Positions 19,221 to 60,191 of a DNA stretch of 64,000 bases are shown here, piece after piece (position 1 is the stretch's first letter; each line of letters starts with the position of its first letter). Source of the DNA: Polytrichum commune (Eukaryota; Streptophyta; Polytrichopsida; Polytrichales; Polytrichaceae). A program made the position numbers and the translations under genes. The notes beneath the pieces were generated by a model. The model made no database searches and was not told where the DNA came from. It saw only the letters and a list, made by a program, of their open reading frames with translations. The DNA lies in contig OX485809.1 of assembly GCA_950295325.1 (NCBI GenBank), forward strand, positions 29,760,001 through 29,824,000. Reading direction: 5' to 3'.

Positions 19221-21607
19221 ATGCAAGCAGTTTCGCTCTGCGCGGCCGGGAATGTTGCACATTTTAAACAGAGTGCGGGGAGGGAAATTGTCGATGGAAA
19301 CAGCGCACAATTGAAGTTCACGGCGAAAGAATGGGAGAAAATGAGGCTGCGGTGGTGCGGAGGAATCCGTAATGGAAAATGGCGGGGATGCTGTAGCGCT
19401 GTGTATGGATATGTGGAGTTTAGGGCTTGTAGGGTTAGCGACGGAGATGGTAGACGGAGGAGTGTGATTACGAACGCAAGCTTAGGCAATAGCGAGAGAT
19501 CTACAAGAGAGCCACGTTTGAAAGGCAATTTGTCACGAAGGGCGATGCACGCGGTGAAATTTCTGCTTGGATGTAAGGAGAAAGAGCAAGGGAGAGATGT
19601 TATTGAGGCGGCATTGCGGCGTTGGGTGGTGAGCATGAGCCCCAAGCGAAAGGATTGGCTTGAAGTGTTGAAGCAATTCGAGAATGCGCCCGACCGGTCG
19701 CTTTATTTCATAGTGAGAGATTCTTTCCTTTTGCTTACGGTGATCTTGACATAAAGAAAGGTACCTTGGGGGTTTATGGCAGGTTCAGGGTTTAGTGTTT
19801 AGGATTATTCCATTCTAATTTCTCGCATACTCGGTAAGAAGACAAAATTTGTCCATTTATGAGAAGAATTGTCAGGGATGAGATTTTTCAGGAAGCGGTC
19901 ACATGTGTTGGTCACGTGGCTTCGCTGGATTCTCAACCTACAGAGCCTTCTGAACTGTCTTACTAAGCTGAAGTATTCAAGCAATTCGAGAATGTGGCCG
20001 ACCTGTCGTTTCATTTCATAGTTAGAGATTCTTTCCTTTTACTCGTGATTTTGACAGAAAGAAATGTACTTGGGGTTTGCAAAGGGTTTAGTGTTTATGC
20101 TTTTTACTACTTTAATTTCTCTCCTACTCGGTGAGAAGACAGATTTCTCCGTTTATGAGAAGAATCATCTGGGATAAGATGCTTTAGAAAGCGGTCACAT
20201 GTGTTGGTCGTGGACCTCGCCGTATCCTCAACCTAGAGAGCCTTCTCAATTGTCTCACTAAGAAGGTGTTGAAGCAACTGGAGAATGCGGCCGACCGTTC
20301 GTTTTATTTCATAGTGAGATCATTTTCTTTTGCTCACGGTGATTTTGAGAGAAATTAATGTAATTGAGGTTTGCGTAGGGTTTAGTGTTTAGGTCTATTC
20401 CATTCTAATTTCTCTCATACTCGGTGAGAAGACGAGATTTCTCTGTTTACACCAAGAGGCCTTCTGAGTCTTCTGATTTCTCTGTTTACACTTGTTGGTC
20501 ATGGACCTTATTGGATTCTTAACCTTAGAGGCCTTCTGAGTCGTCTCACTAAGCTGAACCTTGCAGATTGCCGAGTGGGGACTTCAAGAGAGCTGGTTTG
20601 AAGCCGGCATTCGGGACTACACCAAATTGATAGATAGGTATGGTAAAGAGGGCTATGTTGAGAAAGCTGAAAGCACATTCCACCTTATGGAGCAGTGTGG
20701 AATATGCGCGGATTTGGCGACACACACCGTAATGATAGGAGTTTATGGTCGGGCTAACATGCTGGAGAGGGCTAGGGAAGTGTTGCGAGAGACCTCGCTT
20801 GCAGGTTTTGCATTAGATGCAACTGCCTACAAGGCCATGATTGTTGCATACGGTTGTGCAGGGTTGCCTGTGGAGGCTGAGACTGTGCTAAACGAGATGG
20901 AGTCAGCTGGGGTGACAGGTGCAGCTGACACTTATCTTGCCCTTATGACTGCTTACGGAAGGTTAGGACAAGCCACCGAAGCACAGAGGATCTTCGATCG
21001 GATGCATTGGAATGGCTTTCGCGGAGATTTGAAAGCATTTACATCTCTTATGGAAGCCTACACCCATGCCAATGACTTCGAGAACGCCATTGTCATTTTC
21101 AGGAGCCTCAGAGCTGCAGGATTGAAACCGGACGACAGAGCATTGTCACGTGTTGTCAGCATATATGGCAAGGCAAACCTGCTCGACAAGGCTGTGGAGG
21201 TTGTTGCAGATTTAGAGGATGCTGGATTAAAGCTTGGTCCACTTACTTTGACAGCTCTCGTCAGGTGGTTTGCTAAATTTGGACTCGTCGAAGAAGCAAA
21301 TCAGGTGATTGAGAAGATGAGAGTTCTGCGGATGCCTGTGAGTTCGAAAACGTATGCAAATATGTATGCTGCATATGCATCAGCAAGGCAACTCGAAGAG
21401 GCTGACAGGGTTTGGGACTTGATGGTAGCAAATGGGATGAAACTCTATGAGGATGAGTCGAGTGCTATTGTTGAAGCTCTTATGGCTGCACAGTTTTATG
21501 AAAAGGCACAAACGGTATGTATGGAGTTGGAAACACAAGGTTGGGCCCCTTCTGTGGAGTTGAAGTCTGCCCTTGCTCAACACTTGCAACTTGCAGTTGG
21601 TAGCTGA
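19221..21607 (+). CDS. Pentatricopeptide/TPR-like repeat protein (At1g01970-like)
   Basis: Two exons, 19221-19712 and 20567-21607, join in phase 0 to give 510 residues. The donor is ATA|GTGAGA and the acceptor TTGCAG|ATT. The junction restores L-Y-F-I-I-A-E-W, matching the F-Y-L-Q-V-A-E region of the Arabidopsis At1g01970 family as I recall it. The N-terminus is basic, rich in Ala, Ser and Arg and poor in acids, as in organelle targeting peptides. The W-V-V-S-M-S-P-K-R-K-D-W-L-E-V-L-K segment precedes the repeats. From about residue 178 to 500 there are roughly nine degenerate 35-residue helical pairs (D-Y-T-K-L-I-D-R-Y-G-K, T-A-Y-K-A-M-I-V-A-Y-G, T-Y-L-A-L-M-T-A-Y-G-R-L-G). PPR proteins usually bind organelle RNA, but RNA targets cannot be read from these loose repeats. 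The next stop falls just after L-A-V-G-S. Confidence 0.88.
19661..20566 (+). repeat. ~300-bp tandem array of exon 1 tail plus intron in the PPR gene
   Basis: The block GAAGCAATTCGAGAATG with CGACC-GTCG-TT and TTTCATAGTGAGA is found at exon 1 and again in the intron. Its GCAA[T/C]T marker is at 19673, 19981 and 20274 (spacings 308, 293). Each copy continues through GGTTTAGTGTTTA, ACTCGGTGAGAAGAC, TCACATGTGTTGGTC and CTCACTAAG. Copies 2 and 3 keep a GT after TTTCATA (20021 and 20314). A partial 3' unit ends at the real acceptor. Reading on from exon 1 meets a stop at 19752-19754, so the copies are not extra coding repeats. Confidence 0.85.
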
Positions 21608-26251: not shown

Positions 26252-26651
26252 CTGTCCTGGTTCAATGAATCGCAAGCACTCAATCACACTCACATGGAGG
26301 ATGAGATCCTTCCATGCTTAAAGAGTTCGTCGTCCTCTCACGAGCATCATCCACCGTGCATATCATCCTCCATCAACTTTCTCATCCACTTCTTCTCCCT
26401 GCAGAAATTCTGCAACGCAGACACATGGAAAGCTCATGCGCACTCTACGAGCTCGTCACCAAATTTCTCCGAGAATGTCCCGGATCGCATCGGACACGAC
26501 TCATCATTGATCAATTTCCCCTCTCCTTCGGACCCCTATGATTTTTCTCTACACGGAGAATCGAATTTCACGAGCTGAGGTGGACTAAATTCCTTCTTCT
26601 TCTTCTTCTTAATAGAGAATCTGCTTGGGAATTGCGGTTTGCTTATTAGCG

Positions 26652-28969
26652 ATGGCGGGGCCTCCGCAAGACGGCAACAAATTGGATCGGAGAGTAGATG
26701 GAAACCTCCTGGCAGCTCGAGCGTTCGCAAAGGCAGGTGTGGAGCAGATGTTCGGAGTGGTAGGGATTCCGGTGACCTCGTTCGCAACGTCATGTGTGCG
26801 GGAAGGTGTTAGGTTTATCGCCTTTCACAACGAGCAATCAGCCGGTTATGCAGCCGGTGCAGCGGGTTACTTGACAGGGAAACCTGGCGTCTTGTTGACT
26901 GTCTCCGGGCCGGGATGCGTGCACGGCCTGGCGGGGCTGAGCAATGCATTTATCAACACATGGCCGTTCATTTTAGTTTCCGGCTCAAGTGTTCAGGCCG
27001 ACATCGGCAAAGGAGATTTCCAGGAGCTGGATCAAGTGGAGATCGTGAAACCGTTTGCGAAGTATGCTGGTAAGGCACACAACATTGCGGAGATTCCAGG
27101 AGTGGTTGCACAGGCGGTCGCCGCGGCAGTGAGCGGCAGGCCAGGTGGCACCTATGTGGACTTGCCTTCGGATGTGCTACATGAGGAGGTTAGCGAGGAG
27201 GAAGCTGCGAGATTGCTTGATGGATTGAAACCTTATGTGCCAGCATGGCAACGGGAGGGGTTGACTAAAGAATTAGGGGCAGGGGATAAGGAGATTCACG
27301 AGGCTGCTTCTTTGTTGCGGAATGCAAAGAATCCGTTGATTGTGTTTGGGAAAGGTGCAGCTTACGCGCATGCTGAAGGTAGTTTGAAGAAATTGGTGGA
27401 ATCGACAGGCATTCCGTTTTTAGCCACGCCCATGGGGAAGGGTTTACTACCGGACGCTCATCCTTTGTCAGCTGCAGCTGCCCGATCTTTAGCATTAGGC
27501 GAAACTGATGTTGCTCTGATTGTTGGAGCAAGATTGAACTGGTTGCTTCACTTCGGTGAGCCTCCTCGGTGGTCCAAGGATGTCAAATTTATATTGGTGG
27601 ATGTGTCACATGAGGAAGTGGAGTTTCGGAAACCTGCTCTTGGGTTGATTGGTGATGCGGATGTGGTTATTAAGCAATTGAATAAGGAGATCAAGGATGA
27701 ACCATTCTGCTTGGGGGAGAAGCATCCATGGGTGCAGAAAATTAAGGCCAAGGTACAAGCAAATGTGCAGAAGATGGCAGGATCATTGAACAAGGATGTA
27801 GTGCCTTTCAACTTCTTGACACCGATGCGTATCATCCGAGATGCCATTCTTGCGGAGGGTTCTCCAGCTCCAATCCTGGTTTCTGAAGGTGCAAATACTA
27901 TGGACGTAGGGAGGTCAGTGTTGGAGCAAACGGAGCCACGAACCAGATTAGATGCTGGGACTTGGGGAACCATGGGGGTTGGGTTGGGGTACGCCATTGC
28001 TGCTGCTGTGGTGTGTCCTGAAAAACTTGTTGTAGCTGTTGAAGGTGACTCTGGCTTTGGCTTTAGTGGCCTTGAAGTTGAGGTATGAGATTCAGCTTAG
28101 CACTCTTTGAATACGTGGTTGTCTGTGGCAGGATCCTGGTCTACCTCTCCATAATGACACAAAAAACTTCAGATCTACTCATGCAAGAGATTTCAGTATA
28201 TATCCAGCTGATGCATAGCTACATCTTGGAAAGAGTTGCAATTTAATGATACCTGTTTGTTTTAATGAGGCACTGTGAGGGAAACAGTCAGTCTACCATC
28301 AGACTATGTGTCTGGATGACCACTAAGTCCAATGAACTTAGCACTTCTTTGAATTTGTGAGTGTCTGTCGTAGAGTCCTGGTCTATCTCTGCATGATGAC
28401 ACAAAAAACCTGAGAGCTACTTGTGCAAGAAATTCAGTATAGATCCAGATGATGCATAGCTACACCTTAGTGACACTTGTTTGTTTTAATTAGGCACTAT
28501 GAGGAGAACAGTCAGTCTACCATTGAACTATATGTTTGGATGACCACGAGGTTTTGCAAGTAATATGGTTTTTAGACATGTTTCTTGAATGCAGCAATGT
28601 CAACTGATCAAATGTCCATCTTGGCCTTACTCTGGTGAGTGGATTTGTTTGCAGACTTTAGTCCGGTACAAGCTACCAGTAGTTGTGATCATTTTCAACA
28701 ATGGCGGTGTCTATGGTGGCGATCGTCGACCTCCTGAAGATTTAGTAGGCCCGCACAAAGATGATCCTGCCCCAACATCTTTTGTCCCAGGTGCTCGTTA
28801 CGACTTGGTCATGGAAGCTTTTGGTGGGAAAGGGTACCTAGTGGAAAACCCTGAGGAGCTCAAGGCTGCCTTGAAGGAATCATTTGCTGCCAGGAAACCT
28901 GCAGTAATCAATGTGACAATTGACCCATATGCTGGTTCTGAAAGTGGTCGCATGGGTCACAGAAATTAA
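26652..28969 (+). CDS. OXC: Oxalyl-CoA decarboxylase / 2-hydroxyacyl-CoA lyase (ThDP enzyme)
   Basis: Two exons, 26652-28082 and 28655-28969, join in phase 0 to give 581 residues. The donor is GAG|GTATGA and the acceptor TTTGCAG|ACT. An in-frame TTG at 26625 lies upstream, but ATG at 26652 (M-A-G-P-P) is the first Met of the frame and is chosen. The pyrimidine-binding half carries the activating Glu61 in F-H-N-E-Q-S-A-G-Y-A-A. The ThDP/Mg signature starts G-D-S-G-F-G-F-S (465-472) and closes with F-N-N (491-493), and the intron falls inside it. V-Y-G-G-D-R-R and G-P-H-K-D-D-P-A-P-T-S-F are typical of the plant enzyme. The family decarboxylates oxalyl-CoA or cleaves 2-hydroxyacyl-CoA; the plant protein is known for oxalate breakdown. 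It ends in H-R-N, not a standard peroxisomal PTS1. A TTC run (about 26592-26610) lies in the leader. Confidence 0.93.
28096..28547 (+). repeat. ~240-bp tandem duplication inside the OXC intron
   Basis: 28096-28322 and 28337-28547 are diverged copies. Both begin CTTAGCACT, pass through TCCTGGTCTA, ATGACACAAAAAAC, TCCAG-TGATGCATAGCTAC and CAGTCAGTCTACCAT, and end GGATGACCAC. The duplication is internal to the intron and includes neither splice site. Confidence 0.85.
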
Positions 28970-41601: not shown

Positions 41602-44600
41602 TACCGGACATGGAATCCCCCCAAAGGGCTTTGAGGTACCCATACAACAAGGTCCAAGGACCCCCCATCATAGTTGGGTGGACTAAGGTGGTGAGCACCA
41701 CGCCGGCCGGTTTACACTATGGATCAATAAGTCGTCTTAGGGTGTTGTAAGAGTGTTGATTGGTTGTTGAACTCGTCCCGGGACCACTTTGGTTTACACC
41801 AAGGAAAAAATGGTAGAGTGATAATGAAGGTCGAGGTCCCCAAAATACATGATTAAGGCCTAATTAATACACTGACATGGTCCAACATGTTTTGCGGTGA
41901 GAGAGGCAAGAGAGGTGGTCTGGTAGGAAAAGGCCAAGGCCCATGGCAGAGAAACGCCGATATAATACATTTTTAATGAATTTCTTTTTGGGGGCTTTAT
42001 ATACAACCTTTCCCACTATGTAAGGCTCACAAGGACCATTTTTCAACATCTATATGATATAATGAATCTGGAGAAGCAAGTCCGCCCTCTATGTGCCTAG
42101 ATCATATCGTAGCCCATGAGACATACCATTTCTTTCATGCCCTACCCCTTAAACTTACTCCCACATGTTTCATCAAACGATGTGGGACATCTAGAACTCA
42201 AGAATTTGAGTACACATGGTGAAGCGGGTTGCAAATAATGCTCAATGTACAACACAAGGTACATGCCACGTGTAAATTACATTGAACATGTACAAATTAA
42301 ATTGCTCATTTTTATAATAAAAAAATGTTGTGAGAAGATTTGCAAACCACATCTTCGACACATTTAACAAGAAGTCAAGACAAGTAAAGCTCAAGAAAAG
42401 ACAAGAAAATGAGCAAACTTGATTTTTTTTTAAATGCCCTTTTTGGGTATACATCAAAAGAAAATCAGCACATTCACTTCTTTTGGTGCATGGTCATTCT
42501 TCTTGGTCAAATCATTCAACAATTTATAATTACCCATAGGGTGCCAATAATCACAACAACTTAGCATTATTTTGGAAATTAATATGCCTTATAATCCATT
42601 CCAATCGTAAATAAACCCCCCATACTATTATTGGGCATTTGTGAATATCATAACCGTAACATGCCCAAATCAAGTCACGTAAGTGCACAAGATCTACAAC
42701 CAATCAAAACATTTAGACCCATGTACTTGGACATGTTGAGAGCAAGCTACCATAGGAAGAGTTAACAATTTACTATATGTTCTCTCTTATGAAAACATGT
42801 TTCTATCATCCCCCTTAAGAATAGGTAATTAGCACACCCAATATGTGCTTTGGGATGGGAAAGATATGGGATGGAATCTCTCCCCACACATGCACCCGCA
42901 TATCATTAAAAAAAATCAATAATCCACAACAGTCTTTATTTTCAAGCATCTCCAAGTCTTCCCAAATACGGAACTAAAAACCCTTGATGTTGTGCTCGAG
43001 TATAAAACACTAAAACACCAATACATTGCAACATTGAAAGTGTTAATTATTGGGTCTATCTACTCAAGTTGACATGACATCCATGCAATGTTCAACAATG
43101 AAGTCTTCAACACTTATCAAATGCCATTTTGGCCGTTAGAAAAGTTTTTTTTTGGGCACTTCACAAAAATGTGCTATGCAAAGTTTCCACCAGTCACAAT
43201 GAAGGCCTCTCCAAAAATTGTTTGTCACAAAATTCTAGTAGGTACGACATCATAAATCTACACAATCAATCATATATAACTTTGGGAAATGATTATAGCT
43301 TTTGTACATAAGTCTAATCGTTATTTGTGTGGTTTGTGCACCTAATAGGAAAGAAATCGGAATTTTGATGAGACCTATGAGGAATGACACATGAGCATCA
43401 ATGCTATGAGGAAGGCATGTGCTACATACATTAATGTTCACCTTGTGTGGCCACTAACAAACAACTCTACTCCAAAGAAGACAAAGGGTTGGTAGTCGAG
43501 CCAAAGCCACAAACGATCTATAGGCATGACAACAACTCAACTCAACTTTGGGTGGCGGCAGAGACAATTTTTAAATTGTGTCAAGAAAGATCTTAAAGTC
43601 CCAAGCACATGACAACTTTGTGAAGTGATGAAAGCTTCTCTGAATCCTTAAGATGGGTGGGTAGATCATGTAATTAATTATATGATTCGATCACTATATT
43701 CCAAATGTTGAGAAAATTATAAGATTATAAGAACACATGCACAAACAACCTCAAACAGAGAGCAATTATAGAGTTGAACCCACCCATTGAACTATGACAT
43801 TCCGCCAATAACCCCAAAGTTGTATGGTTGGGATCCTACCCTCTCCATGTCATGTCCAATAGATACAAATGTCACTAGAAATTAGGAAGAGCAATCGATC
43901 ACAAAACCAAGTACATCAAACCATGAAACAACATTATCTAACACACTTGATAAGGAGACATATATAATTTAACTAATATTGATGAGAAAAGAACAAGTAT
44001 GGACCACTACAATGTTCTCCATGACCCATCCAAAAGAAGTGCCAAACTTGCGAATTGCTTGTGGACATCTTGCAAAATTAATGTATGCAAACCGCAATAG
44101 CATGCAACAATTGCAAACAAAGAGAGAATTCACTCACTTGTTGGGTGTCACCCCCCCCCCCACCCACCCACCACCTCACATACTCCCACTTGCCACCTTC
44201 CCAAATCGTCTCCCCTCACATGTGGGCACCAACCAACACCATAAGCATTGATGACATCAACCTGCCCACCTCACATCCACATGGCTTCTTGCTAGCCATT
44301 TTATCGCCCAAAACCTCACACCCTCCAAGAAAACCAATTTTTTTCCTCTCAATGTTATTCCACGGTGCTCCCCCCCCCCCCCCCCCGGCTAATGCACAAG
44401 GAGACACACTACCTACTTATTACCAAACACAAAACATACCTAAATAAAGGAGTCCAATGTGATGCCCTAACACTAACCCCACTCCTTGCAAAGCTCCTTA
44501 CTTTCTCAAGCCCCCCCCCTTGAAACCCTAGGGGACATCTCCCATGTGATTTCGTCTATCCTCAATTCTTTACAAAAGTCAACAATTATTCATTCATTCT

Positions 44601-45772
44601 CCATAATTGAGGTGCAAGATATTGTATATGATTTTTCATATCCAGCCCTTTATGTTCATAATATTTTATATGTATCACTATGGTAATCATATGATATGAT
44701 GTAAAATGCTATATTACATATAATCATGTTTTGTACACCCAAAGCACCTTATATTATATATAATTATTTTACAAAATTTATCGACGATTAAAATTTGAGA
44801 CCTTATATTTCATTGCACAAAGTTTTTATGTTTTTCGCCAATGCCCTCCACAAGGTGGGGTGTGGGGATGGTATCCTTTAGTTGAAGCCCACATTTTTTT
44901 TGGGTAACCCACGAACATATGCTAAAGTTTGTGAGAATGGACCATTGAATAACATTATGTTATGCATGCAATAATTAGAATGCAAATCTAAGAAAGAAAA
45001 AAGACATATTTAACTAGTCACATGCTTAGTACACCACCTTACTCTCTACATGATTTTGTTTTTGAAAAGTGCTAAACTATTTCATGTGGATAGTTTTTTT
45101 GACAAAAACCACAACAAACAAATTAAAAAAAATAACGCCTTTATTTAGGTACCAACATGAATGTGAGTCCGTTAGCCATATGTTGATTACGGTTAACCAT
45201 TATGCAGTATAGGGTGTTATGCCTCCTTCAAAAACCACAACAACTCTTATCCTTTGACATATAGAAACACTTCATGCTAAAGTGCCCAAAACTAAGGTAT
45301 GTGGGTGTCAATTGTTTCATTTTTCATGTTCTCCAACCTCTACCAAATAGATTTACACAATTCAATTTGTAGTAGCAATTCTACAATGAAGCATTAAGAA
45401 AGTATACCAGATTGTAAATCGGACCTTCCTTGACTTAGTTATGGTTATCAAAATTCTATGTTTGTTGAATTCTTAGTTGAAGACATAAGTCCTTTCAGTT
45501 GTGTTCACTGTTGAGGTGGAGTAGTTAATACATTATGAAGACGTAGTCCAATCTCTTTCAACCATGTGTCTTTACAATGTTTGTTCTTGGATCCTCACCT
45601 CATTGCATACCAATCAAATATATAGGTGTCCGATTAAGAATAATAACCGAATAACGTCCACATACCTTAGTATGGTAACTTCGCCAAATTCATATTTGTA
45701 GACCAAATGGATTTGCATAGAAGGTGGAAGTTCATCTTCCCAAGTTCATTGTCGTCCATTTAAAAAGCAATG
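41602..45772. other. Intergenic, no supported gene; poly-C runs
   Basis: No domain-bearing frame in about 4.2 kb. Homopolymer C runs are at about 44150-44161 and 44370-44386. The proline-rich frame at 44085-44447 is a product of these C-rich runs. Confidence 0.5.
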
Positions 45773-45996
45773 TCCAGCGGTCGCCTGCTTTACCTTCCGT
45801 GTACGCATGCCTTCGCCATTGTCCCGCGTGTCCCATCATAATTCCGAAGTTTTATCCAGCGGTCGCCCAACGCAGACACTGCTGCACTTCCCTCGCTAAG
45901 TTCAGAAAGTATCCAGCGGTCGCTGTGATTATCCCCAATATAATACCAATAACGTACATCCGACTGCGCTAAATTGAGCGGTTGTCCAGCGGTCGC
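45773..45996. promoter_or_regulatory. Four-copy TCCAGCGGTCGC motif in the E1 promoter region
   Basis: The 12-mer TCCAGCGGTCGC is present exactly four times, at 45773, 45855, 45912 and 45985 (spacings 82, 57, 73). The first and last copies are followed by GCT-TACCTTCCGTGTA. The cluster is about 1.1-1.3 kb before the E1 start codon and just upstream of a CT-rich, leader-like stretch (46018-46060). It may be a transcription-factor site cluster or a decayed minisatellite. Confidence 0.6.
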
Positions 45997-46303
45997 TTGC
46001 TGTACCTTCCGTGTAAAGAGAGTTCTCTTTCTTCGTCTTCTCTTTCAAAGTGTCTCGTCGCTTGTTGCTGTTGTTGGTGTCGTCGTCGTCGTTGTAAACA
46101 TTTGCTTCGCCTTCTTAGGCCTCGGAGGATTTCTTGTGCAAAAATTAGTTAAAGGAATTAGGCTTGCATACTAATCTGCTCGACCTCCATTTTTTTGAAG
46201 CTTCTTGTTCCCTTTTAAATTGCAACAATACTCGGGTAAGGTAAGGAAGATGATCCATCAAGCGAAGAAAGTGATGCAAGTTTTCTTGTTGTGCCTCTGT
46301 GCC

Positions 46304-46960
46304 GAGGATTAGCCCTAATTTCAAGTTCTGCACAGCTGCAGATTTGGTTTGGTTTGGTCTGGTTTGAAGTTGTGTGTGTGGTTATTTGTGGCTGGGGGCG
46401 ATTTGAAATGACGGGAATTGTGTTCTGAGGAATTTTGCCCTAGTTTTTGGTATTGCAGAGCTGCGGGAACTCACTCGGGTTTGAGTTGATTCGAAGCGCT
46501 TTTAAGTGTTGTGTGGTATTTTGGTCTCCGAAAAAGTGGTGGGTGAATGAATTGACGAGAATTCTTTTTTGGATTTTGCGTGAGGAATTTTTCCCTAGTT
46601 TATGGTGTTGCAGAGCTGCGGAAAACCGCTCGGGTTTGGTTTCATTTGATTGATACGGTTTGGTTTTGATTTGGAGTGTGGGCTGGTTGTTTGGAATCCG
46701 AGGAAGTGACGGGAATTTTGTTTAGGGTGTTTGTGGGAGGAATTTTGCCCTAGTTTGTGTTGCTGCAGAGCTGCGGGAAATCGCTCGGGTTTGATTTGGT
46801 TTGGTTTGGATTTATTTGAAGTGTCGGGTGGTTGTTTGGACTCCGAAGAAGTGGCGGGTGAATGAAATGACGGGAATTGCATTCTGGTTTTGTGTGAGGA
46901 ATTTTCCCTAGTTTTTGGTGTTGCAGAGCTCGGGTTTGATTTGGTTAGAATTTGAAGTGC
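46304..46960 (+). repeat. ~155-bp tandem array in the E1 5' leader region
   Basis: The block GAGGAATTTT-CCCTAGTTT...TTGCAGAGCTGCGG begins at 46427, 46582, 46737 and 46896 (spacings 155, 155, 159), with a weaker unit at 46304. Each carries CTCGGGTTTG, TTGGACTCCGAAGAAGTGG-like and GACGGGAATT blocks. Each unit includes a TTGCAG that could serve as a splice acceptor for a leader intron. Confidence 0.85.
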
Positions 46961-47077
46961 TGGGTGGTTCTTTGGACTGCCAGGGGGACTGGGGCAGGAA
47001 AGGAACGGAACGGAAAAGATTGTTGATTAGGCATTCGAAGGCGGATGTGAAGAATCATTAGCCCTACGGATTCGAGA

Positions 47078-50000
47078 ATGGTAACCATGGACGTGGACAA
47101 TGCGCCAGCGGACGGAGGAGGCATAATCAACGTGGCGACAGTGTCAGCTCCGTCCATGAAGGAGACGAACGAGCTGCGGTACTCGCGGCTAATCCACACA
47201 TTAGGCAGGGAGGCAGTTAGCTCGCTGCAGCACAGCCGAGTGCTGATTGTAGGTTGCAAGGGGGTGGGAGCTGAGGTGGCGAAGAATCTGGTGATGTCAG
47301 GTGTGCAAGGGTTAGGGTTGGTGGATGATGAACCAGTTGCCATAGCCGATCTCGGGGCACAGTTTCTCCTCAGTGGTGCTGACGTGGGACGAAACCGGGC
47401 AGTTGCCACAGCACACAAATTGAAGGAGAGCATCAGCCCATCCATTGAGATTGTGACCTTGACATCCGGCCATGCGTTGGAGAGTGCAGTGGGGAGCTAT
47501 GGTGCTATGGTGGCCACTGTGGGCACATTACCAGAGTTAATCAGATGGAACTCCATATGTCGCTCCTTGGGTGTTCCGTTTGTGGCAGCCATTTGTCGTG
47601 GTGTGTTTTCATCTGTGTTTGTGGATTTTGGAGATGATTTCTCCATTCTGGATGAAACAGGGGAGCCTCCGGGGGTGATTCTGGTGGAGGGCATTACACA
47701 GGACTTTCCTGCCACGGTGACAGTTGTCGAGGAGCAGAGGCATGGCCTTGAGGATGGAGACGAGGTGGTGTTTAATGGGATTAAGGGAATGGAGGACTTG
47801 AATCGGTCGACACCGTATGCAATTACAGTGGCAGGAGTGAATTCTTTCACCATACAGGAGGACACACGATCTTATGGCCGGTATTTGTCAGGTGGGTATT
47901 TCAGTAAGGTGAAGACATCCAAGAGAGTGGAATTTATGTCTCTGGAAAGGGCGCTGGTGGCTCCAAAGTTCTGTGTTAGTGACCCTGTGAAAGAATCCCG
48001 AGCATTACACCTGCATGTTGCCTTTCAAGCTGTGGATGAGTTTGAGAGACGACGACGACATCATCATCATAATGGGGAGAATAATCCATCACCATCATCA
48101 TCATCCTCAAGTGCTGCTGCTATTAGCTCTGACCAATTGCACGAGGTTGTAGCATTGGCTCGCGAAATTTGGACAAACTTAGATGTTGTGGGTGTTGGGA
48201 AGGGGAATGCTAGCAATGGTAGCTTCTCAATGGAAGAGTCAGCTGAAGCGGCGGAGGAAGAGGAGCCGGCTGAGGTTGTTTTGAAAACTCTTGGGGAAAG
48301 AGAACAGGGCCTGAATGAAGAGAGAGGAGCTGGATGTAGCGGTGTAAACAGTAGCATAGATGGCATGGCGGCAGCAGCAGCCGCCGCTACGGGGGTGATT
48401 TTGGGCAATTCACAGGCTGGACCATCATCATTTCGGAAGAAGATTGACATAGACGAGGAGTTTGTACGACTTCTTGCACAAGGTGCACATGTTGAACTGT
48501 GTCCTGTAGCTGCTGTAACTGGCGGCATTGCTGCCCAGGAGGCCATGAAGGTACCTTTTAAATTTTCCTATGTGCAACCTAGGGGAGCAGCCATCCATCT
48601 GTCGATCTCTGATGATGAAAGTTTGTTCTGGCCGACTGCTGGTGTGTCCAACATGTTCGTAGCAGTGATGATGGTTCTCACCAGCAATCAATCCTCCACT
48701 TCCATGGGCTTTTAAAATCTCTCAAGGGGAGTTGGATAGAACATCAATTATTGCACAGCAGACAAAACTTGATCACTATGGTTGGTTGGGTTTTAAACAC
48801 TTCTCTACGGAGCCTTCTCCCCTGTCACGTCATGCATAGGCAAGTCAGAAGGAGTTTCCACAACTCTCTTGCAATCTCTTTACATATTGAGGGCCACAAT
48901 CCATAAATTCAGGATTTTTGTTATGCCCCACTTCTCATTGTGTTTGATTTGGCATTGACAGGGACTGTCAAGGGTTTTCACCCCACTACAACAGTGGCTA
49001 TACTTTGATGCTGTGGAGTGCCTTCCGGCTGCACCACTTCCTTCAGAGGACACCGCCCCTTGTGGGTCTCGTTATGATGACCAGATATCCTTGCTAGGCC
49101 GAGCATTTCAGGAGAAGCTTGGGTCCCTTCAGGTGTGTGTGTCTTTGAAGAAGATGTCTCTTTGTTACAATAACAGTTTCCATTATGACAATTGCAGTCT
49201 ATATCTGAATACCTACTCTGACGGTCATTAGGCAACCTTCTCTGTGATGGAACATGGAGACTCAGACTTCAGATTTGTAGGAAGTTTTAGCATTCAAATG
49301 ATTGTGGTGGCCATTCATAGGGTTGGTTGCTGATTTAGTTTGAGTGTGTGCAGTGGCTTGTCGTGGGGGCAGGTGGACTTGGTTGTGAAGCGTTGAAGAA
49401 CTTGGTAATGATGGGTGTGGGCTGTAGCTCAAATGGCAGCATCACAATCACAGACATGGATGTAGTTTCCAAGCCCAACCTGGTTGATCAACTCCTTTAT
49501 CAGCTTGAGGATGTCGATCGTGCAAAGGCGCCGGCAGCTGCAAGAGCTTTGCGAACAATCAATCCTTCTGCTCAGATTCATGCACTGCAGGTAGTCTGTT
49601 CTTCCTCCCCATCACATCCCTTTTAAAGATTTCTCAGCTGTCTTCCAAGGTCTGGTTCTATTGGGTGGGAGACCATAATGTCCAACACTAGTGCAGGTTC
49701 CATCTAGTGTGATGTATTGTAGGTGTGAACACAGGCACATGCACTGTTAGGTGAGTCTACAGGCACTGATATTCTCATCAGAGGTTTTTTATCCGTGAGT
49801 GAACCTGCAAATGTGCAGGAAAGGTTTGACCCAGAGACGGAGACTATTTTTGACTCTTCATTCTTCAACTCAATAGCAGGTATATTAAGCACAGAAAGTC
49901 TGGTTAGCACATAAAGCTTGATGATGAATATCACTGAAAAGTCATTTAATGTCTGAGGCCACAGTTGCAATGTCTTGGGGATGATGGATATTTGGGTTGG

Positions 50001-53000
50001 AGTTGCAGGTGTGTTTTCAGCTGTAGATTCTTCATCATCAAGGCTTTATCTCGACACTCGATGTGTTTCCAATAGGAGGCCAATGATTGATGGTGGCAAG
50101 CATGGAACCAAAGGCAGTGTTCAGGTTGAGCTTTTAACCTAATCACGTGATAACATAATACTTGCAGTTTGCCATATATTCATGGTTTTACTGGCCAAGT
50201 TATGCCAAGTTCTCACAAGAGGTGGGCTAATAGAGAAGGAGAATCAGCTCATCATATGAAGAATCTGAATTCTTGTTTGTGGTAACCTCTTGATGATGCT
50301 ACCTCCAAGCATTGTATGTTTTCATCCAGGTGTTGAAGCATTCTTCTCCCAGTTTGCCAAATGTTGGAGATTTGTATTTCCTTCTAGACCATGTAATCCT
50401 AAAGTTTGAATGCCTCACCAGTTTTAGCTTCTACTACTGATTGCAGGGTCTTCATTGTAATGGCAGGTGTTTGTACCATTTTGTACTGAGATGTATGCAT
50501 CTACTCGGGACCCTCCAGAGCACAAGGAAATACCTATATGTACATTGAAAAATTTCCCTTATGCAACAGAGCATACTCTTAGGTGGGCTGTGGAGACCTT
50601 TGATGCTCTCTTCAAGAGTCGACCTGTTGATGTGAACGCCTATTTGTCTAGCCGTGACTTCCAGGACAGTATACGTAAATCACCAGCTTCATCACGGCTT
50701 CCCATCTTGGAAACTCTTCATGATGCACTTTTGCGACATCGGCCCTTGAGGTTGGTCTGTCAACCTAGAGCTAAGTCTAGTCAATACCTGCATAAGGTTT
50801 TCCCATGCAAGATGCATACTATTAAAATGAAATTATCTCCTCGTGAAGTTTCTTGAGGTTTTGCTTCATTATATTTTATTGGTGTTATAACTATCTAGCA
50901 AACTCTTTTAGGGCTTAATTAAAAAAAATTGGGGACTGCTAACTCATAATATTACTCAGAACTTAGTGCTCGTTCAGTGGGCCCTTGGATTATAACAGTC
51001 AGATGCTCAGAAAGCTTTGCAGGGAGACTCAGATTTTAACTGAGCTCCCAGCATCTGACTGCTGTATTCCGAGGGCCCACATCGCTGAGTAATGTTATGC
51101 TGCATCAGAGCGTTGATCTATTTATTTCTTTATTGATTTCACCTGAAAATGCATTTCATTTTAACCGAGAGAAATGCCACTTCCATATTCTGGATTTCTG
51201 ACAACATCTTCTGTTGCTCAACAAGTACTTGCCAACACTTGTAAGTTCGGGTAAGAACACTTGCAACTGCAGATAGTTGCAAAAGTGGAGTGTTTATGCT
51301 AGTGTGCCTTCTTGAATCAATATCTCTGCTATTATAAAAAGGCAGATAATGGAAGGTTCTTTGTTCTCTATGGAGGGCTTGGATGCTGATTGAAAGGTCA
51401 AGCCTTTCATGAGCATTTACAGATCTCAACATGAGGTTGTGCAATTTTGGTACTGTCTAGTTCTTGGGGTAGTATTATCCAGAGGTGGCAAATGGGCTGA
51501 TGAGAACTCAATTTGTGGTCCAGTTTGGACGCGTGTGTGCAATGGGCTCGTTTGCAATTTGAAGACTTATTTTCCAATAGCATCAAGCAGGTATGGTTCT
51601 GCTATGTGTGAAGACTACAATTAGGAGAATATCTCGCCCTCTGACAAGACATTGTGTCATTATGAGAATGGACGCTTATTTTACAATCACCCCCTATGAT
51701 GAGTTTATGAATGCCTTAGTTTGTTTGGCTAATCTGTTTTGTGCACAAGACTGTGAGCTTTATATTGAAGTGCAACATTCTGTAATCTGTACAGTGAGGT
51801 ATCAGCTGTTGAAAAGAGAAGTAAATATTAGAAGAGAAGAGTTTTTTTGTATACAAAATTCAAGTTGATTCTTAGAGACTGTCTTATTTTCTGCCCTATT
51901 CTATGCATAGCTGTATGATTTATCTTTTATGTTATTATTCACATTGGGATCTTAATCTTGGAGGTGGCCAATCTGATTCCACCTAGTAGACTACTATCTT
52001 ATTTAATATTTCCATCATGATAAATGATGGGCATTGTTTTGCTTATGTCTACATTGGCAGCTCTGTTTCAATTTTCCTGCTGGTATGACCACAACTGCGG
52101 GTGCCCCTTTCTGGAGTGGAACAAAAAGAACTCCAACACCGCTTGTCTTTGATACTTCTGATCCTCTCCACCTTGACTTCATAATGGCTGCTGCCAACCT
52201 TCAAGCCACTGTCTATGGTCTCAAAGGATGCCAGGACCGGGCTCTTTTTGTAGATCTTCTTCAGCGTGTTGTTGTTCCTCCATTTGAACCCAAAGTAAGT
52301 GTTTTTCTGACCTCTCTTTTCAAGGTGTATTACTTTCATGGTTATGCATCAAGGTGTTGAATGAAACTTGTGTACAAGTACGACAAGCACAAGTAGCATA
52401 CTTTGTTCATTGCCAGTAGATGCTTGTCTGCCAGAGAGGTGTGGTCTATTCCTAAAGGGCTCACCCTCAACATTTGGTCAAAGAAGGCCATCAAATGCAA
52501 TCACTGCTTTCCTGGTTTCATGTTTTATTTCAATGTTGTTCTTCAGTACTGCACTTTTCTAGATGATTGTTTTTAAACCTATATCTGAAATTTACACGAA
52601 AAATTAATATCCATACATGAGATTTTTTAGTGATTATTCCTAAATCCTCCTGAAGAGCTCGAGTTTCTCCAATAAAATGTGGATGTTGACATGAAAGAAA
52701 GGGGAGAATGGAGAATGGCATGGGCTATTGCTATTGGTGATGAGTTGTACTAAAGTGCATGAACACTGTTGTCTTATTGAGATTGAAACCAATAATTTGT
52801 TACCGATGGTCTTTTAAATACAATTCTGTTGCATTAACATTTTATATGGAGACAATGAGAAATACAAGGAGATACTAGATGTCTCATACTGGTGATGAAG
52901 GAAAGGCTTAACAACCATTTAGCCTTTAGGGGTTAGTATCTTGGTTTCAAGGGATGGAATTTGCAGACTTTGCTACACTGAATATCGCCATTATTGTGAG

Positions 53001-55700
53001 TTGATAATTAGTCTTACTATCTCGCATTGGCTGCTAATTCCTGAACTTATTGAGAATTAACGTCTCTTTTCAAATAATAAACAGGATGTTACATAAAATG
53101 AAATATTTGTCAAGTGTGTTATTATATCAACCTAATCTTATTAAATTACACACCAATTTTTATTTCACAAATAGCATGGACCACAATACCTGGTACATTC
53201 ATAGCTGGTGTAGTTATTTGTAATCAGCGCTATGTGAATTATTCATGAACTATTTGAGGTATTATGATATCGCACTGAATGTGGGCCACACTAATGGCTA
53301 TATCCAGTGTAGTGAATAGAAATATTTCAGTTCATTTTATGTATGGAGTTCCACTCAGACCTCTATATCTACAGTGCTCCAATATTTTAAACCATCTTCA
53401 AACCTCCTCTCTAATTTTGAGATTGTTTAGCCTCTTTTTAATTGACCACCAAAGCTTTGGTATAGGAAGGGGTGAAGATTGCAGTAACAGATAATGAGTT
53501 GCGAAATCAACCTAGTCAACAACGAAGGGGTCGACATGCAGAGGACACTGAGGCTGCTGAGTCATGTGAAAGAATTTTACGCGAGCTCCCCACCCCAGCT
53601 ACTCTTGCGGTTAGTACAGACCTACCATTTTTGAAGCATGGTTTCCTGTTGATTCAGCTACACTGATATGTGCAATTAGTTTGCCCCATATCAATATATC
53701 AACATTCCACACTATTTTTATACGTAACTACCACAGTAACAATATATGGTGATTATTACTATACTGTGGTTGCTGTACGAATGGATTAACAAAGTTGTAA
53801 GTTTTTGTTTTCTGATTTTGACCCAAGGTAATATGCATGTGTAAAGAGACAGCCTATTTGTGAAGGCAGCCTAATTGCACATATTGGCATACTTTGTTAT
53901 ACTTGGAATCGTCATTCACGAGTGTTGTATTTGATGTATGCGCAGCTAAATTGAAGTACGTTTGTAATTATTGTATACTTATAGAAACTTGGGATTCTAA
54001 TAGAGCTGTTCTATCATGGAGTTGATCTAATTTGCGTGGTGAAAGTCACCAGTTCAAGTTACTCAACCTGTGATTTTGGTTATGGTCACTTATTAACATC
54101 TTATGATTACAGGGATACAGATTGGTGCCCATTGAGTTTCAGAAGGACGATGAGCACAGTTTTCATGCCGAGTTTGTGGCTGCAGCTGCCAGTTTGAGGG
54201 CACAGAATTATGGCATTCCCAGTACAGATAAATTACAGGTGTGTGTTGGCCGGGTACTACAATAGAGGGCACTCTATTTCCATGTTTACTAGTGCCAGAA
54301 TGTAGTTTCCATGTGCGATTTAGAGAGGGGCTCAGCCAATGTAGGATTGACACATGGAAAATATCAGGGATTTTTAAATTAAAAAAGTCCGTTTGAAATA
54401 GAGAGTGGTATAGTCCATTTTGCACCTGTAGGGTAACACTGTTAAGTGGGTTGCAGGCAAGGCTTGTTGGTGGAAGAGTTATTCCCGCTATCGTGACAAC
54501 CACAGCGGTGGTGGGAGGTCTGATGTGTTTGGAGTTGTACAAGCTAATTCAGGGAAAGCCGCGATTCGATTATAAACATGCATACTTCAACTTGGCTGTA
54601 CCTCTCTTTGCTTTTGCACAACCTATTCAAGCTTTGGAGCACACGGTAATTTGCTACCCTTTTCAAACATATTAAATCAGAACCATTTGATTCAACTCTT
54701 GTCCAGATATATTTTGACTGGTACAGATAGGTCCTTGTTGTGTGCAAGTCCTTTGGTTTTTACTGACGAACATTATTTCTGTTGGTTCAGGTGGCAAGGA
54801 AGCATGGAACACCGTTAGTGTGGACATTGTGGGACAGGTTTGAGATGGACTGTCAGAACATGAACTTGGAAACATTTTTAGCTGAATTCCAGCGCCAACA
54901 GGGTCTTGAGGTATTTATCTCGTGTACAAGATTTCTCTTGAATATTAGAGTTATCCTCTAACTCAACATAACTTTTTGTCGGGAGTTCGTTGTTTTGCAT
55001 ACAACACCTTCCATGTTTGGTAATTTTATGTCTGCTTGGAGGTAGTGTAGAGGTTTGAGCGTAGAACATTCTATAGCGGTTCATTGAGGATCAGACTCAT
55101 TTTTTGCATGCCAATAAGTGCTAAAAGAAGTTTGGCCCTCAAATGAACCACCAAAATAGGTTGCTCTTCAATCCAATTCAAACACTACCTCTAAGCATGC
55201 ACCACAAGTGGAAAGGAATTACTTACTTTGCATGCAAAACTACCAAATGGAAAATCAGAGGGGACCAACTCCCAGCAAAAAGTCCCATCGAGGTAAAGGA
55301 TTACTCTATTGTGACTTGTGACAATTTCTTTATGCTGTGTCTTTTACTATTGGGATTCCAGAGTATCTCTTGTCAAGAAAAAGGTTTCACTTGCTGTTGT
55401 CCAACCTGAAATTTCATTATTTCCAACAAGACAAGAAGAAATCTAACTGAAGATTTTTTTCTGGGTGACATTGTGGTGCAGATTACTATGCTTTCATTTG
55501 GGAAGAGCTTGCTGTATGCCGAGTTTCTTCCTCGAAAAAAGCTTCAAGACAGGATGCCATTAAGTCTGATCGACCTTGTCACTACAGTGGGCAAGGTGAC
55601 ACTGCCACCCACAGAGAGCAATATCACTTTCTCCATTTCATGCACAGATGCAAATGATGAGGATGTTGAGGTTCCGGATGTTGTGGCCAAAGTGCGATAG
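47078..55700 (+). CDS. E1 activating enzyme, UBA1/UBA6-type, divergent
   Basis: Thirteen exons join in phase: 47078-48550, 48962-49132, 49354-49590, 49819-49879, 50009-50124, 50467-50750, 51524-51590, 52061-52294, 53466-53609, 54113-54238, 54457-54645, 54791-54910, 55482-55700, giving 1,146 residues (family about 1,050-1,080). The order is inactive adenylation fold (from about 31, G-C-K-G-V-G-A-E), FCCH-like part (about 187-285), a low-complexity His/Ser/Glu/Ala insert (about 325-455), and the active adenylation fold from 549 ([12 protein letters not shown]). Catalytic Cys711 lies in P-I-C-T-L-K-N-F-P, followed by the Cys domain ([15 protein letters not shown]). [17 protein letters not shown] and a C-terminal ubiquitin-fold domain end the protein. 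E1s adenylate ubiquitin or a relative and load it on the Cys. The ATP loop reads N-L-V-D-Q where N-L-[NS]-R-Q is usual. V-K-T-S-K and S-L-E-R-A-L recall UBA6. Confidence 0.9.
50945..51099. mobile_element. Palindromic MITE in E1 intron 6
   Basis: Inverted ends CATAATATTACTCAG (50945 on) and its near-complement CTGAGTAATGTTATG (to 51099). Inner matching blocks are GTGGGCCCT and CAGTCAGATGCT, and a central palindrome is GGGAG-CTCAG / CTGAGCTCCC. About 155 bp, non-coding. Confidence 0.8.
54947..55308. mobile_element. Foldback MITE in E1 intron 12
   Basis: The left arm (54947 to about 55090) and the right arm (about 55107-55308) are inverted relatives. Both carry ...CCTCAA(T/A)GAACC, an ACTACCTC block, TTGCATGCAAAAC/TTGTATGCAAAAC and CAAAAAGTCC or its variant. 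It is the same family as the elements in the macro gene at 12652-12987 and 11422-11606. Confidence 0.75.
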
Positions 55701-58700
55701 GAGGTAGCCAGATCCAATTTCTGAAAGCTCCTATAGATGTAAAGTACAGTGCAACAATTTCACATGCTGTTAAAAAAAAATCCTTGTATAGTCAATTTGC
55801 CACTAAGAATGGCTCTTTGTCCCCCCTTTGAGCACTGATTGATGTTGCATTAAGTGAGGAGCCTTTAGTCTGCAACTTACTTACCATATGTTCAAATTGC
55901 ATGTACTCTTTTGTCCTCTGGGAGCTTCATTGTACGCTTCAGTACTTTGAGCAAGTGGTGGCGGGATCCATTTGGAATATAAAGTAGATGGGTCTTAAAT
56001 GGTTACTTTTTTCCCGTCTAGCCCACTTCTAGGATATGAAACATGTGATTGGTATGAGACTCTCAGCAAATCCTAATTGACACTGTAGCCACTTTCCTCA
56101 TAATTATCGGAGCTCATGTGAATATCTCATTCACTAGCAAAGTGAAGATTCTCGTGCTCATTAAATGGTCATGTAGGTCCCTTCCAATTATATTTAATAT
56201 TTAGCCTAGAACGGTTATCATATTGAGCACGTGGTCCAATCTCAGCTAAGCATTAAACATAATAAACATGTTTAATTTGCATTACACTGAATATTTGTTG
56301 TAGCATGGCTCACACTACTCATATTGAGCCAAATTAATTGCCTTGCAATCATTAGGTGGCAAGTAAGGCGAATGTCACATGACACTTGGTGCTTTATGAC
56401 AAATCACAAACACCACATACAGAGACCATTCGGATGTTGCCACCGGATTAAAATAATGGTGTTGCTTCATTTTTGACTTGGTCTAAATTTATATGTAATC
56501 TCGTAAGAGGATTACAAGAATTAGAGAATCCTTGACGACTACTACATCCTTTTGAAGGTGAACACCTTGAATAGGCACGAACAAGTTGGTTGGCACTTGT
56601 AGTAGAGGCGTCTATTCTCGATCAAGACCCCATTTGCAATTTATAGGGTACCATAATTTTGATCATGTTGGGATGGAAATTTGATCAAGCTGGGTTTTAA
56701 TTAGAGTAATTACTTACCATAACCCCTAAATGCATGAGAAGCCAAAAAGTGGTTGAAAGATTTCAAGGATAGTTTTCTTAGTGTGGTTCTACATCAAACA
56801 CAAACAAATTGATGAAAATTATATATTAGACGTGTTCTATGGAGGATGTTAAAGTTATCCTTAAAGTCTTGGGATGCTTGGTCATACTCAAGTTTCACCT
56901 TCAGTTTAGGCTCTTGGGCTATATTTGGCATATTGAGGATCATGTGTTAGTAGGTTAAACATAACCACAATGTCAAAGTCTAGGCAACCCGCATTTAGGA
57001 TCGTCTCCTGGTTTTGCCCCATTTCCAGGGTTTCCACATGGACCTACCCTTTTATCCTTTCCATTCACTCCCTCATTCCTCCACCAACGCTTGAATCTCT
57101 GAGAGGTTGCCACATCGTTTGAGTCTCAACAACCTTCTTATAAGGTTGTGCTTTGTGCTTTGTGCACCTTGAACAAGGGCGACATAGTGTGAGAGGGCAC
57201 AACTATTGATGGGTTTGGGGTTGGGCAACATAAATTGAGGTGATCATTGAAGGCGAGTGCATACATGAACTAAGGTAATCATCAAGGTAGAGGACGTATA
57301 AGGGAGTGAGGTGATGAGCAAGGGCGGCATTGACAACAAGGTGAGTGGACCTTCAAACATGTGCTGGGTTGTTCAAATTGCACCTACATGCCTCTAGGGT
57401 TACCAAATGTTGGCAAAACCTCTCTTGAATTTGATGGATCACAATGCAACCCATTAGGGTTGCTAAATTTTCTAGGAACTAATTCCCGATTTTGGTGGAT
57501 CAAGTTTAGGCCTTGTAGGGTTGCCAAATTTCTTAGAATCTTCCTTGCAATTTGGTGAACCTCTGCAACTTTGGGTCTTAGATTTCCATGGATCCTAGTT
57601 GTAGCATGTAGTGTTGGTTTCTTTCCTCGCATGGTTACCTATTATCCCTATAGTGTCAGCTACTTTCCTGGTCATGGTTGATTATTGGATTATGGCTAGT
57701 GTTTCTAACGCTTTTCTTGCTCATGCCTTTTGCAAGTAGTGGTGACTGTAATTCCAACGGCCTTTTTCCCACGTTTATCCATTTTGTAGTAAGGCATTGA
57801 TGTCTAGCATATAAGCATAGAGTAGTAATTAGTAGTATATCGATAGACGTCATCACCCATGTACTAAGTTTCATGTGCAACTTTGATTAAAGATTGAATA
57901 CCAAGTGTGAATCATTCTACATTAAACACGGCAAGATGAATTGCATACATGTCCACATGCAACATTGATATGTGCATGTACATTCTGATTTGAATGCTTG
58001 ATTTCATATTGTACGTCTTCGCTCGGTTAAACACATCCATGTTGTTATGACTTCAATGTGTAGATGAATCTACTTGTGTGGAAAATGGATGATGTCTTGA
58101 CACACGCATGTTAGGATCGGGAACGTCTTGGAACTTTGACTTGCCCGTCTACACCCCTAAATGGGCATCCACCCTTGAGGGCTTTGATGTTGGTTACATT
58201 CTTGAACTACCGAACAACTTGGTGGTGCAACATATTCGCCCGCATCTATTGCAATCTTGCGATCCACTTGTTAAAGTCGTCATTGATGACATCATTCCCA
58301 AGTGTGTACTTTGTGGGTATTAAACATGAGTGGAGATGGTTTGTTTCCTCTACACCCAATTATGCAGTATTTCGTGCGGTCAAATATGCGTTGAGAGTTT
58401 TTAGGGGTTGTAGACACATGGGTTGATTTGAGAACAAAGTGAGGACAAAAATATAATCAATACCTTGAAATGTTCAAGGCAATAGTTATTTGTCCTTGTG
58501 TCCACTTGTCACCCATTTTCCCAACTTGAGCTTGAAGGAGTTGGTTGCACTCAAAGATACCCTAAAGGAGGCAAAATATGGTGATTTTGGCGTGAATGCT
58601 TAGGATGTGGTTCATAAGTACTTCCCACCAAAGGTGGGACTGTTTAGATCACTCGAGAGGCTTAGCATGATAGTTCAAGATGAGTAGAGTAAAATCGCCT

Positions 58701-60191
58701 ATTCTCGATCTTTAGAGTATCTATTTAATTACCAATAATATAGACCCCATCATGAATTTATAGGGTACCCGAATTTCAATTAGGTTGGGATTGATTTTAG
58801 TAATTTCTTTTCATGGGTGGTTAAAAATAAGGTTCCATGCTTCACGGCTTGGGCTTGTGTGCATAGTAGGACATGATTGCCAATTGTCACATTAATTAGA
58901 GCATGAACCAGTGAGAATGGTGGCCTATATTATTGGTAAACAAATGATTTGTACTAGTTTAAAAGCTTCTACAAGTTGATTTTGAGATTAATGGTGATTA
59001 TGTGTACACGTGGATGGTCATGAAGAATGTAGTTATGGCTTAGCGGATTCTAAAACCCGCCATAAGCGACTCACAATTCTGCACTCTCAAATTTATAGGC
59101 ATAAGTGCATGACTTTGAGATCTACAAACTTGCATTTGCAACTCTTTGACTACCAACTAACATTATGCCTTGTAAACTTTCTAGCTTCATGCAATAGCAA
59201 AAATCAAGTGGTGTAGGTGGCAATTTCATTCTCATTGAGGAATTTGAGGCAAGTGCACACCAATTTGCAGTCACATGGTAGAAGCAACAACGGGCGTCAT
59301 TGAAGAGCAACCGTATGATTATGTTGTACCAAATCAGTTGGTTGGCAAGGGTATGTTGAGTAGCAATGACGGGTCAAATAATAATGGTAACAAATCTCCA
59401 ACTAGTAAGTAGCTTGTTGACTACCGTAACTTGGAGGTGTTGCAAGAGAATTAGTCACGGAGGAGAAATGGCACTTGGAGGAGCAATCTACTAGCACCAT
59501 GAGTTATCAATCACCAATGTCCATCAACTGCAGCAAGACCATGTGAGGTTATTATGCTTGAATTCTTATTGATCCTACTCAAAGTGCATTCTCGGAAAGA
59601 CTTGGAGGCATAATATTCAACACATATTATGTCAATACTCTCTTTAAGTATTGACTAGGGATTGCAAGCAAGAAAATCAATGTACTTCAACCTAAACCAT
59701 GGTTTAAAACATGCCTGAACTAATCATGATTTGCAAAATAAATTTGCAAAAATAAAAAGTTCCTACCATCTTATTTTCCCTATTGTTGCACTAATCGGTC
59801 AGAGAATAATGAAGGTCAAAATTGAATCAGACACTTCTCTCTATTGTAACAACTATGAAAATATTTTATTCTAGCTATTGTCATCTAGTTGATATTCAAT
59901 ATGTTCAAATAAAAAAATTGAGAGATACTTGACAATTCATGAACAAGCTATGCTTACATGTGTATGACATTGGCAAGTCAAAGTGAGCTATTTGCTGGTG
60001 CGCACATGTCAATGAACCAACTAGGCATGGATTCTTGTAGCTTAACATGCCATAGAGCTTCTAGGAGGCAATTGGCTCATTGATCTCAATCCGTGGAGGA
60101 TATTACAACTACAAGTCCCCCACTGACCCTACATGTCTCAAAAACGTTAACCGAGACATCAACAACTCCCAATTCAACAATAGGCATGTGA
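55701..60191. other. 3' flank of E1 and intergenic DNA
   Basis: The E1 3' untranslated region probably fills the first 200-300 bp. A dispersed repeat at about 56107-56257 matches 17990-18120 and 18390-18500 (blocks such as TTCA-T-G-CAAAGTGA-GATT and ATGGTCAT-TAGGTCC). No other gene is supported. Confidence 0.5.

Follow-up and report, generated by a model that had tools for sequence, protein, structure and literature searches.

Textbook E1s couple ATP-driven adenylation to thioester transfer, and a gene of Polytrichum commune whose product keeps the catalytic Cys while carrying Asp in place of an Arg of the ATP loop raises the question of what such an enzyme might do. The gene lies in a 64,000-nt stretch of the genome (C7:29760001-29824000; the window, in which all positions below are numbered unless a contig is named), and a first-pass annotation had offered three options for its product (hereafter the window E1), namely adenylation that works differently, a carrier of pre-activated cargo, or a pseudoenzyme.

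Splicing of 13 exons on the forward strand (nt. 47078-55700) yields a single open frame of 1146 a.a., in which the sole stop is the terminal codon and all 12 introns are of the GT..AG type. An earlier 12-exon model (1125 a.a.) was ~20 residues short near residue 780 when compared with solved E1s, and scanning of a 1.3-kb intron recovered a 67-nt exon (exon 7, nt. 51524-51590) that restores a Cys-domain helix, so 13 exons are needed. Exon 1 (nt. 47078-48550) encodes the IAD, including Arg37 (yeast Arg21), the FCCH, and the first part of the four-helix bundle with a low-complexity insert, and exon 2 (nt. 48962-49132) encodes the linker and the start of the active adenylation domain. The Gly-rich loop, the TDMD motif, and the altered ATP loop all fall in exon 3 (nt. 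49354-49590), which is followed by exon 4 (nt. 49819-49879), exon 5 (nt. 50009-50124), and exon 6 (nt. 50467-50750), the last of these carrying the catalytic Cys711 (PICTLKNFP) and the first part of the Cys domain. This domain continues through exons 7, 8 (nt. 52061-52294), and 9 (nt. 53466-53609) and ends in exon 10 (nt. 54113-54238), which leads back into the adenylation domain; the second part of the latter lies in exon 11 (nt. 54457-54645), the passage to the ubiquitin-fold domain (UFD) in exon 12 (nt. 54791-54910), and the UFD with the stop codon in exon 13 (nt. 55482-55700).

Pfam matches in the window E1 run ThiF (PF00899, twice), FCCH (PF16190), 4HB (PF16191), SCCH (PF10585), and UFD (PF09358), all above cut-off, although 4HB is matched no further than from position 2 to position 47 of its 70. 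In this part of exon 1 lie ~95-100 extra residues (nt. 48040-48440) within the four-helix-bundle region, largely of low complexity with runs of His, Ser, Glu, and Ala, for which an unrecognised intron may be an alternative reading. By homology, the protein is a UBA1-type single-chain E1, having both the domain order and the catalytic Cys in the crossover loop. The single stop, the Pfam matches, and the aligned residues agree with the first-pass annotation that Cys711, the T-D-x-D Asp, the Cys domain, and the UFD are intact in a 13-exon frame.

A search for a second, canonical E1 in the genome, as had been proposed, returned two. Family matches to SCCH and UFD were found at four loci in the 408-Mb assembly (64 contigs), comprising the window gene, the canonical plant UBA1 genes C1 and C3 (84% identical to one another; SNLSRQFLFR in the ATP loop and APMCTVHSFP around the Cys), and a copy on the 32,871-bp contig C41. 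All 15,001 bases that were compared between C41 and the window (nt. 44175-59175) are identical, and C41 is probably a duplicate contig of the assembly; as the copy is identical, it supplies no independent evidence, no evolutionary information, and no dN/dS. Among nine other ThiF-family places, the loop carries the Arg in four (NLHRQ, SNLNRQ twice, and NPLRQ) and reads NLNWQ in one short fragment, while the remaining four were not readable with the loop pattern used. That short fragment, L018 (C7:19224600-19225400), resembles L011 (by eye a UBA3-type gene) in its loop, has Trp for the same Arg (NLNWQFLFG), and is probably a remnant of a pseudogene. Neighbours of the E1 gene in the window include a PPR-repeat protein (nt. 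20558-21604) and a thiamine-pyrophosphate enzyme with N, M, and C domains (nt. 26616-28966).

The window E1 was aligned with C1, C3, human UBA1, UBA6, and UBA7, yeast Uba1, S. pombe Uba1 (partial), the 9qgg E1 (partial), and Arabidopsis UBA1. In frame, the exon 3 loop reads P589-N-L-V-D593-Q-L-L-Y-Q598, with Val before the Asp and Gln for the later Arg just as had been described, and the codon GAT (nt. 49486-49488, forward strand) places Asp593 in the column of yeast Arg481, where all nine other E1s, UBA1, UBA6, and UBA7 included, have Arg. Across yeast positions 474-486, the window E1 departs at 7 of the 11 columns that are invariant in the other E1s. That these differences stem from an error in the gene model, the sequencing, or the assembly is scarcely credible to us. 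While the 12-exon first model was indeed off by one exon, several loop codons differ in frame, the duplicate contig C41 is identical, and a change from Arg to GAT requires at least two base changes, so that a single-base error is no explanation. Moreover, when the two strands of the window were scanned with a loop pattern, no alternative canonical (mutually exclusive) exon 3 came up, the matches being exon 3 itself and one short, chance-like stretch far from the gene (nt. 14215, minus strand).

The ATP contacts of yeast Uba1 are given as R21, R481, K494, D470, D472 (Mg2), D544 (Mg1), and N545 (PMC9378703). Five of these seven are retained in the window E1 (R37, D582, D584, K606, and D654, equivalent to R21, D470, D472, K494, and D544, respectively), as are N590 and Q594 (yeast N478 and Q482), and two are altered, with R481 becoming Asp593 and the adenine contact N545 becoming Ser655. 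The exon 5 sequence (AVDSSSSR, with V-D654-S-S-S-S-R retaining the Mg-binding Asp) is as first annotated; part of its weight as an argument for inactivity is lost, since human UBA7 (ALDSFQAR) likewise carries Ser in place of Asn545. The exon 5 change alone is no proof of inactivity, and among the seven contacts only the loss of the Arg is without parallel in the nine E1s.

The same loop has Ser587 at the position of yeast Glu475, so that an acid has gone at 475 and an acid has been gained at 481. UBA6 Glu502 (yeast 475) is modelled as helping to bind a second Mg2+, and UBA6 Arg508 and Arg46 are modelled in the same role as their E1 equivalents (PMC9391358). This acid swap might fit an E1 that is still active, its ATP site having been remodelled such that Asp593 and Ser587 alter metal and phosphate coordination (e.g., Asp593 binding the second Mg2+). 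The enzyme would then activate ubiquitin, or some other ubiquitin-like protein, with kinetics or a nucleotide preference unlike those of the other E1s. The presence of all five equivalents of R21, D470, D472, K494, and D544, and the Ser shared with UBA7, fit such an enzyme, as does the retention of Q576 and D591 at the Ub-tail positions, where S589 has become Thr. Set against it are the reversed charge adjoining the gamma-phosphate, the changes at 7 of 11 invariant loop columns, and the related enzyme Tcd2, in which an Arg to Ala change (R128A, equivalent to MoeB Arg73) lowered the ct6A/t6A ratio by 91.0% (PMC13139853). We consider a remodelled but active site possible, if somewhat doubtful, and the main rival of the reading favoured below.

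Residues of the second step have fared differently from the loop. Cys711, Thr712, and Lys714 align with yeast C600, T601, and R603. For the thiolation state of UBA6, a newly gained hydrogen bond is described between Thr626 and the AMP phosphate, together with a water network that includes Asp569, Asn570, and Lys628 (PMC9391358). Among the equivalents of these four residues, the Asn alone is altered in the window E1, and as this exon 5 Asn belongs to the thiolation water network, the change reaches the thioester step to some extent.

The contrast extends to whole domains. We counted broken invariant columns by domain, using nine reference sequences and borders set from yeast numbering. The breaks are concentrated in the adenylation halves, with their greatest density in the ATP loop (7 of 11). 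The adenylation parts break 14/35 (IADa), 13/50 (AADa), and 4/20 (AADb) columns, compared to 1/26 in SCCH and 0/5 in UFD, where the count is limited to five columns because two references end early (0/8 with the seven full-length references). FCCH (1/11), 4HB (1/5), and the second IAD part with linker (3/17) make up the remainder. The difference holds for IADa and AADa (27/85) versus SCCH and UFD (1/31; Fisher's test, p = 0.001) and for IADa, AADa, and AADb together (31/105) versus the rest (6/64; p = 0.002). When each E1 was left out in turn, the window E1 broke 37/169 columns, UBA6 28/160, UBA7 16/147, and each of the other seven between 0 and 6. By this measure the opposite pattern is seen in UBA6 (SCCH 10/35, AADa 2/39) and not in UBA7 (SCCH 3/27, AADa 5/42). 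Branch lengths on one fixed tree (window E1 as sister to opisthokonts) were 1.60 for IADa, 1.28 for AADa, 0.71 for SCCH, and 0.80 for UFD in the window E1, with values for AADa and SCCH of 0.55 and 1.66 in UBA6 and of 0.98 and 1.36 in UBA7. Fast adenylation halves beside a conserved Cys domain and UFD are the pattern to be expected if constraint on the ATP step were eased or altered while the thioester/E2 step was retained.

A long branch overall with fast adenylation halves could also be left by a redundant third E1 that is drifting towards loss, its adenylation halves first, and beside two canonical E1s the gene may be dispensable. Such decay would, however, have spared 1146 open codons and 12 GT..AG introns, and SCCH and UFD break just one of 31 invariants. 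Against both C1 and C3, pN (0.43) is well below pS (0.79, saturated; dS is saturated likewise, and only pN and pS are therefore given), and GC3 (0.459) is like that of the canonical genes (0.455 and 0.463) and above the intron GC (0.380). Selective survival across so deep a split is also unlike drift, and we regard a gene heading for loss as very unlikely.

The three options of the first-pass annotation remain sensible, and the two canonical E1s and the uneven constraint shift the weight among them. At about an even chance, in our estimation, the window E1 is crippled in adenylation and still functions at the E1-E2 thioester step. We favour this reading because of the loss of the Arg, the Tcd2 precedent, and the reversibility of transthiolation. 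The Arg altered in Tcd2 (MoeB Arg73) corresponds to human UBA1 Arg515 (PMC12355090), and by analogy the charge reversal in the window E1 should be worse than the loss of the Arg in Tcd2. The partner of the latter, Tcd1, has Thr at the Arg position, and a part as regulatory subunit has been suggested for it (PMC13139853). Transthiolation is described as 'easily reversed', its forward drive normally coming from coupling to adenylation (PMC11374688).

The sequences show an intact gene that belongs to an old E1 lineage and is retained beside two canonical UBA1 genes. The active adenylation site of its product has lost the Arg that grips the ATP gamma-phosphate, with the charge reversed, within a loop that is near-invariant in the other E1s. 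Structures and the one mutagenesis precedent suggest that its adenylation of ubiquitin is most likely very weak or absent. The conserved Cys domain, Cys711 with Thr712 and Lys714, and the E2-binding UFD point to the E1-E2 interface as its most likely place of work, where it would bind E2s and perhaps, by transthiolation in reverse, accept the ubiquitin of an E2~Ub, serving to buffer, exchange, or regulate; ordinary activation could be left to C1 and C3. Against this reading, most other ATP-site residues are retained, and a site long out of use might be expected to have lost more; the altered Asn touches the thioester step as well; and UBA7 lacks the opposite pattern by invariant columns. A more specific proposal is that of an ATP-independent ubiquitin thioester exchanger, a non-adenylating protein that passes ubiquitin from one E2~Ub to Cys711 and on to a different E2, and so stores charged ubiquitin or levels its distribution. 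An E1 freed of the coupling between adenylation and transfer could run in both directions, and we consider this exchanger quite unlikely.

As to the age of the gene, the first-pass annotation had not considered a separate, old E1 lineage. The window E1 is 38-39% identical to C1 and C3, 37.4-39.0% across land-plant UBA1, and 42.5% to human UBA1, with the SCCH at 49% to human UBA1 and 38% to plant C3. None of the seven introns in C1/C3 coincides with any of the 12 in the window E1, the nearest being 11 alignment columns off. A placement as sister of C1 + C3 loses 141-162 log units and was rejected in all three sequence sets (AU p 1e-104 to 1e-4). On these sequences, a recent copy of plant UBA1 is rejected, and the window E1 would fall outside the land-plant UBA1 clade (as tested against C1 + C3), its lineage having split, by the same sequences, from land-plant UBA1 before the sampled plant UBA1s (Arabidopsis, C1, and C3) diverged.

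The deeper placements are closer to one another. With the adenylation domains removed, sister to all opisthokont UBA1 was best in each of four tests (AU p 0.92-0.95), and it was also best under LG; sister to the three animal-type E1s was best of five under LG+C20 (AU p 0.13-0.67 across tests), and the plant and opisthokont placements tie when UBA6 and UBA7 are left out; sister to plant UBA1 was rejected in no test (AU p 0.16-0.34). Among four constrained trees, the one with UBA7 as sister scored best (AU p 0.609 versus 0.556 for sister to opisthokonts), and the unconstrained whole-protein trees joined the two with 74-76% support, both branches being long. As this link is gone from unconstrained trees without the adenylation domains, it is read as probable long-branch attraction. 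Grouping with UBA6 never gave the best tree (AU p 0.044-0.129, <0.05 in one of six tests). The sequences show an old E1 lineage and do not decide between the deep placements.

Some of these features might also have been left by horizontal transfer, with an animal or a fungus as donor, an origin compatible with any function and one that would replace descent as an old plant paralogue. At 52 columns fixed differently in plants and opisthokonts, the window E1 agrees with the opisthokonts at 28, with the plants at 8, and with neither at 16; the SCCH is nearer to human UBA1, no intron is common with C1/C3, and the animal-type sister placement is not rejected. However, 18 of the 28 opisthokont-type residues are also found in UBA6 and may on that account be ancestral, probably so in our view, and a spot next to human UBA1 itself fares poorly (AU p 0.033-0.053, <0.05 in three of four tests). 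A fungal sister was never the best of the compared trees (AU p 0.028-0.19), despite one unconstrained SCCH+UFD tree with 18% support, and the plant UBA1 sister was never rejected. We consider transfer unlikely and vertical descent the more likely origin. With regard to viral sources, a scan of viral contigs for exon 3 (six short peptide patterns) gave 20 candidate stretches and one based on the three-protein alignment (two short peptide patterns) gave 105, none of them related by tblastn, though such short patterns may miss distant relatives; the sole locus from a prokaryote-genome scan was a bacterial ThiF/MoeB-type gene and was dropped. Titles and abstracts of open-licence literature on Physcomitrella/Physcomitrium, Marchantia, bryophyte E1s, plant UBA6, and inactive E1s contained no atypical third E1. 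Two E1s are reported for tomato, and plants are reported to lack UBA6 orthologues (PMC12477439).

Two non-coding elements accompany the gene. Upstream of the E1 frame, four exact copies of TCCAGCGGTCGC lie within 224 bp (nt. 45773-45996, forward strand). Across the assembly this 12-mer is matched 15 times; four of the matches are in the duplicate contig C41 and four of the other 11 are here, compared to 7 matches for the reversed control pattern, and a gene-specific promoter element is a possible function. A hairpin in intron 6 (nt. 50945-51110) has a minimum free energy of -84.6 kcal/mol, with a z-score of -9.9 for nt. 50940-51112. We rejected it as a microRNA precursor, as it is instead a repeat, a MITE-like element, with at least 42 matches (itself, the C41 copy, one opposite-strand self-match for each, and 38 others), a lower bound from 40 scored of 405 candidates; the copies are 80-88% identical among the matches listed. 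No Rfam family reached its gathering score within the window.

If the preferred reading is true, an old and conserved E1 without its ATP grip and with its thioester and E2-binding parts would mean that the two steps coupled in textbook E1s are separable in nature, and the protein would be a natural tool for studying that separation. Should the gene prove to be an old plant paralogue, UBA1 would not have been the only deep E1 lineage of green plants, this one being the second.

The closest known systems are the UBA1/Uba1 enzymes of human, yeast, and S. pombe (38.8-42.5% identity), which share with the window E1 the domain order, the catalytic Cys with its T and K/R neighbours, and the UFD; human UBA1 is also the best solved-structure match (819.6 bits, with the 12-exon model). 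The window E1 differs from them in the Asp for Arg481 and six further broken invariants at yeast 474-486, in its accelerated adenylation halves, and in the extra residues of the four-helix bundle. Land-plant UBA1 (C1, C3, and the Arabidopsis sequence) has the same fold and domain order but is only 37.4-39.0% identical, and C1 and C3 keep SNLSRQFLFR and APMCTVHSFP and share no introns with the window gene. Human UBA6 and UBA7 are, like the window E1, divergent second and third E1s beside UBA1, and UBA7 has the Ser at Asn545 in common with it. Unlike the window E1, both retain Arg481, and by branch length AADa is their slowest or second slowest domain and SCCH their fastest. A further likeness is offered by yeast Tcd1, a ThiF superfamily subunit and tRNA-modifying enzyme that is not known to have a Cys domain or a UFD. 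Its equivalent Arg is missing as well (Thr116), and a regulatory role is suggested for it (PMC13139853).
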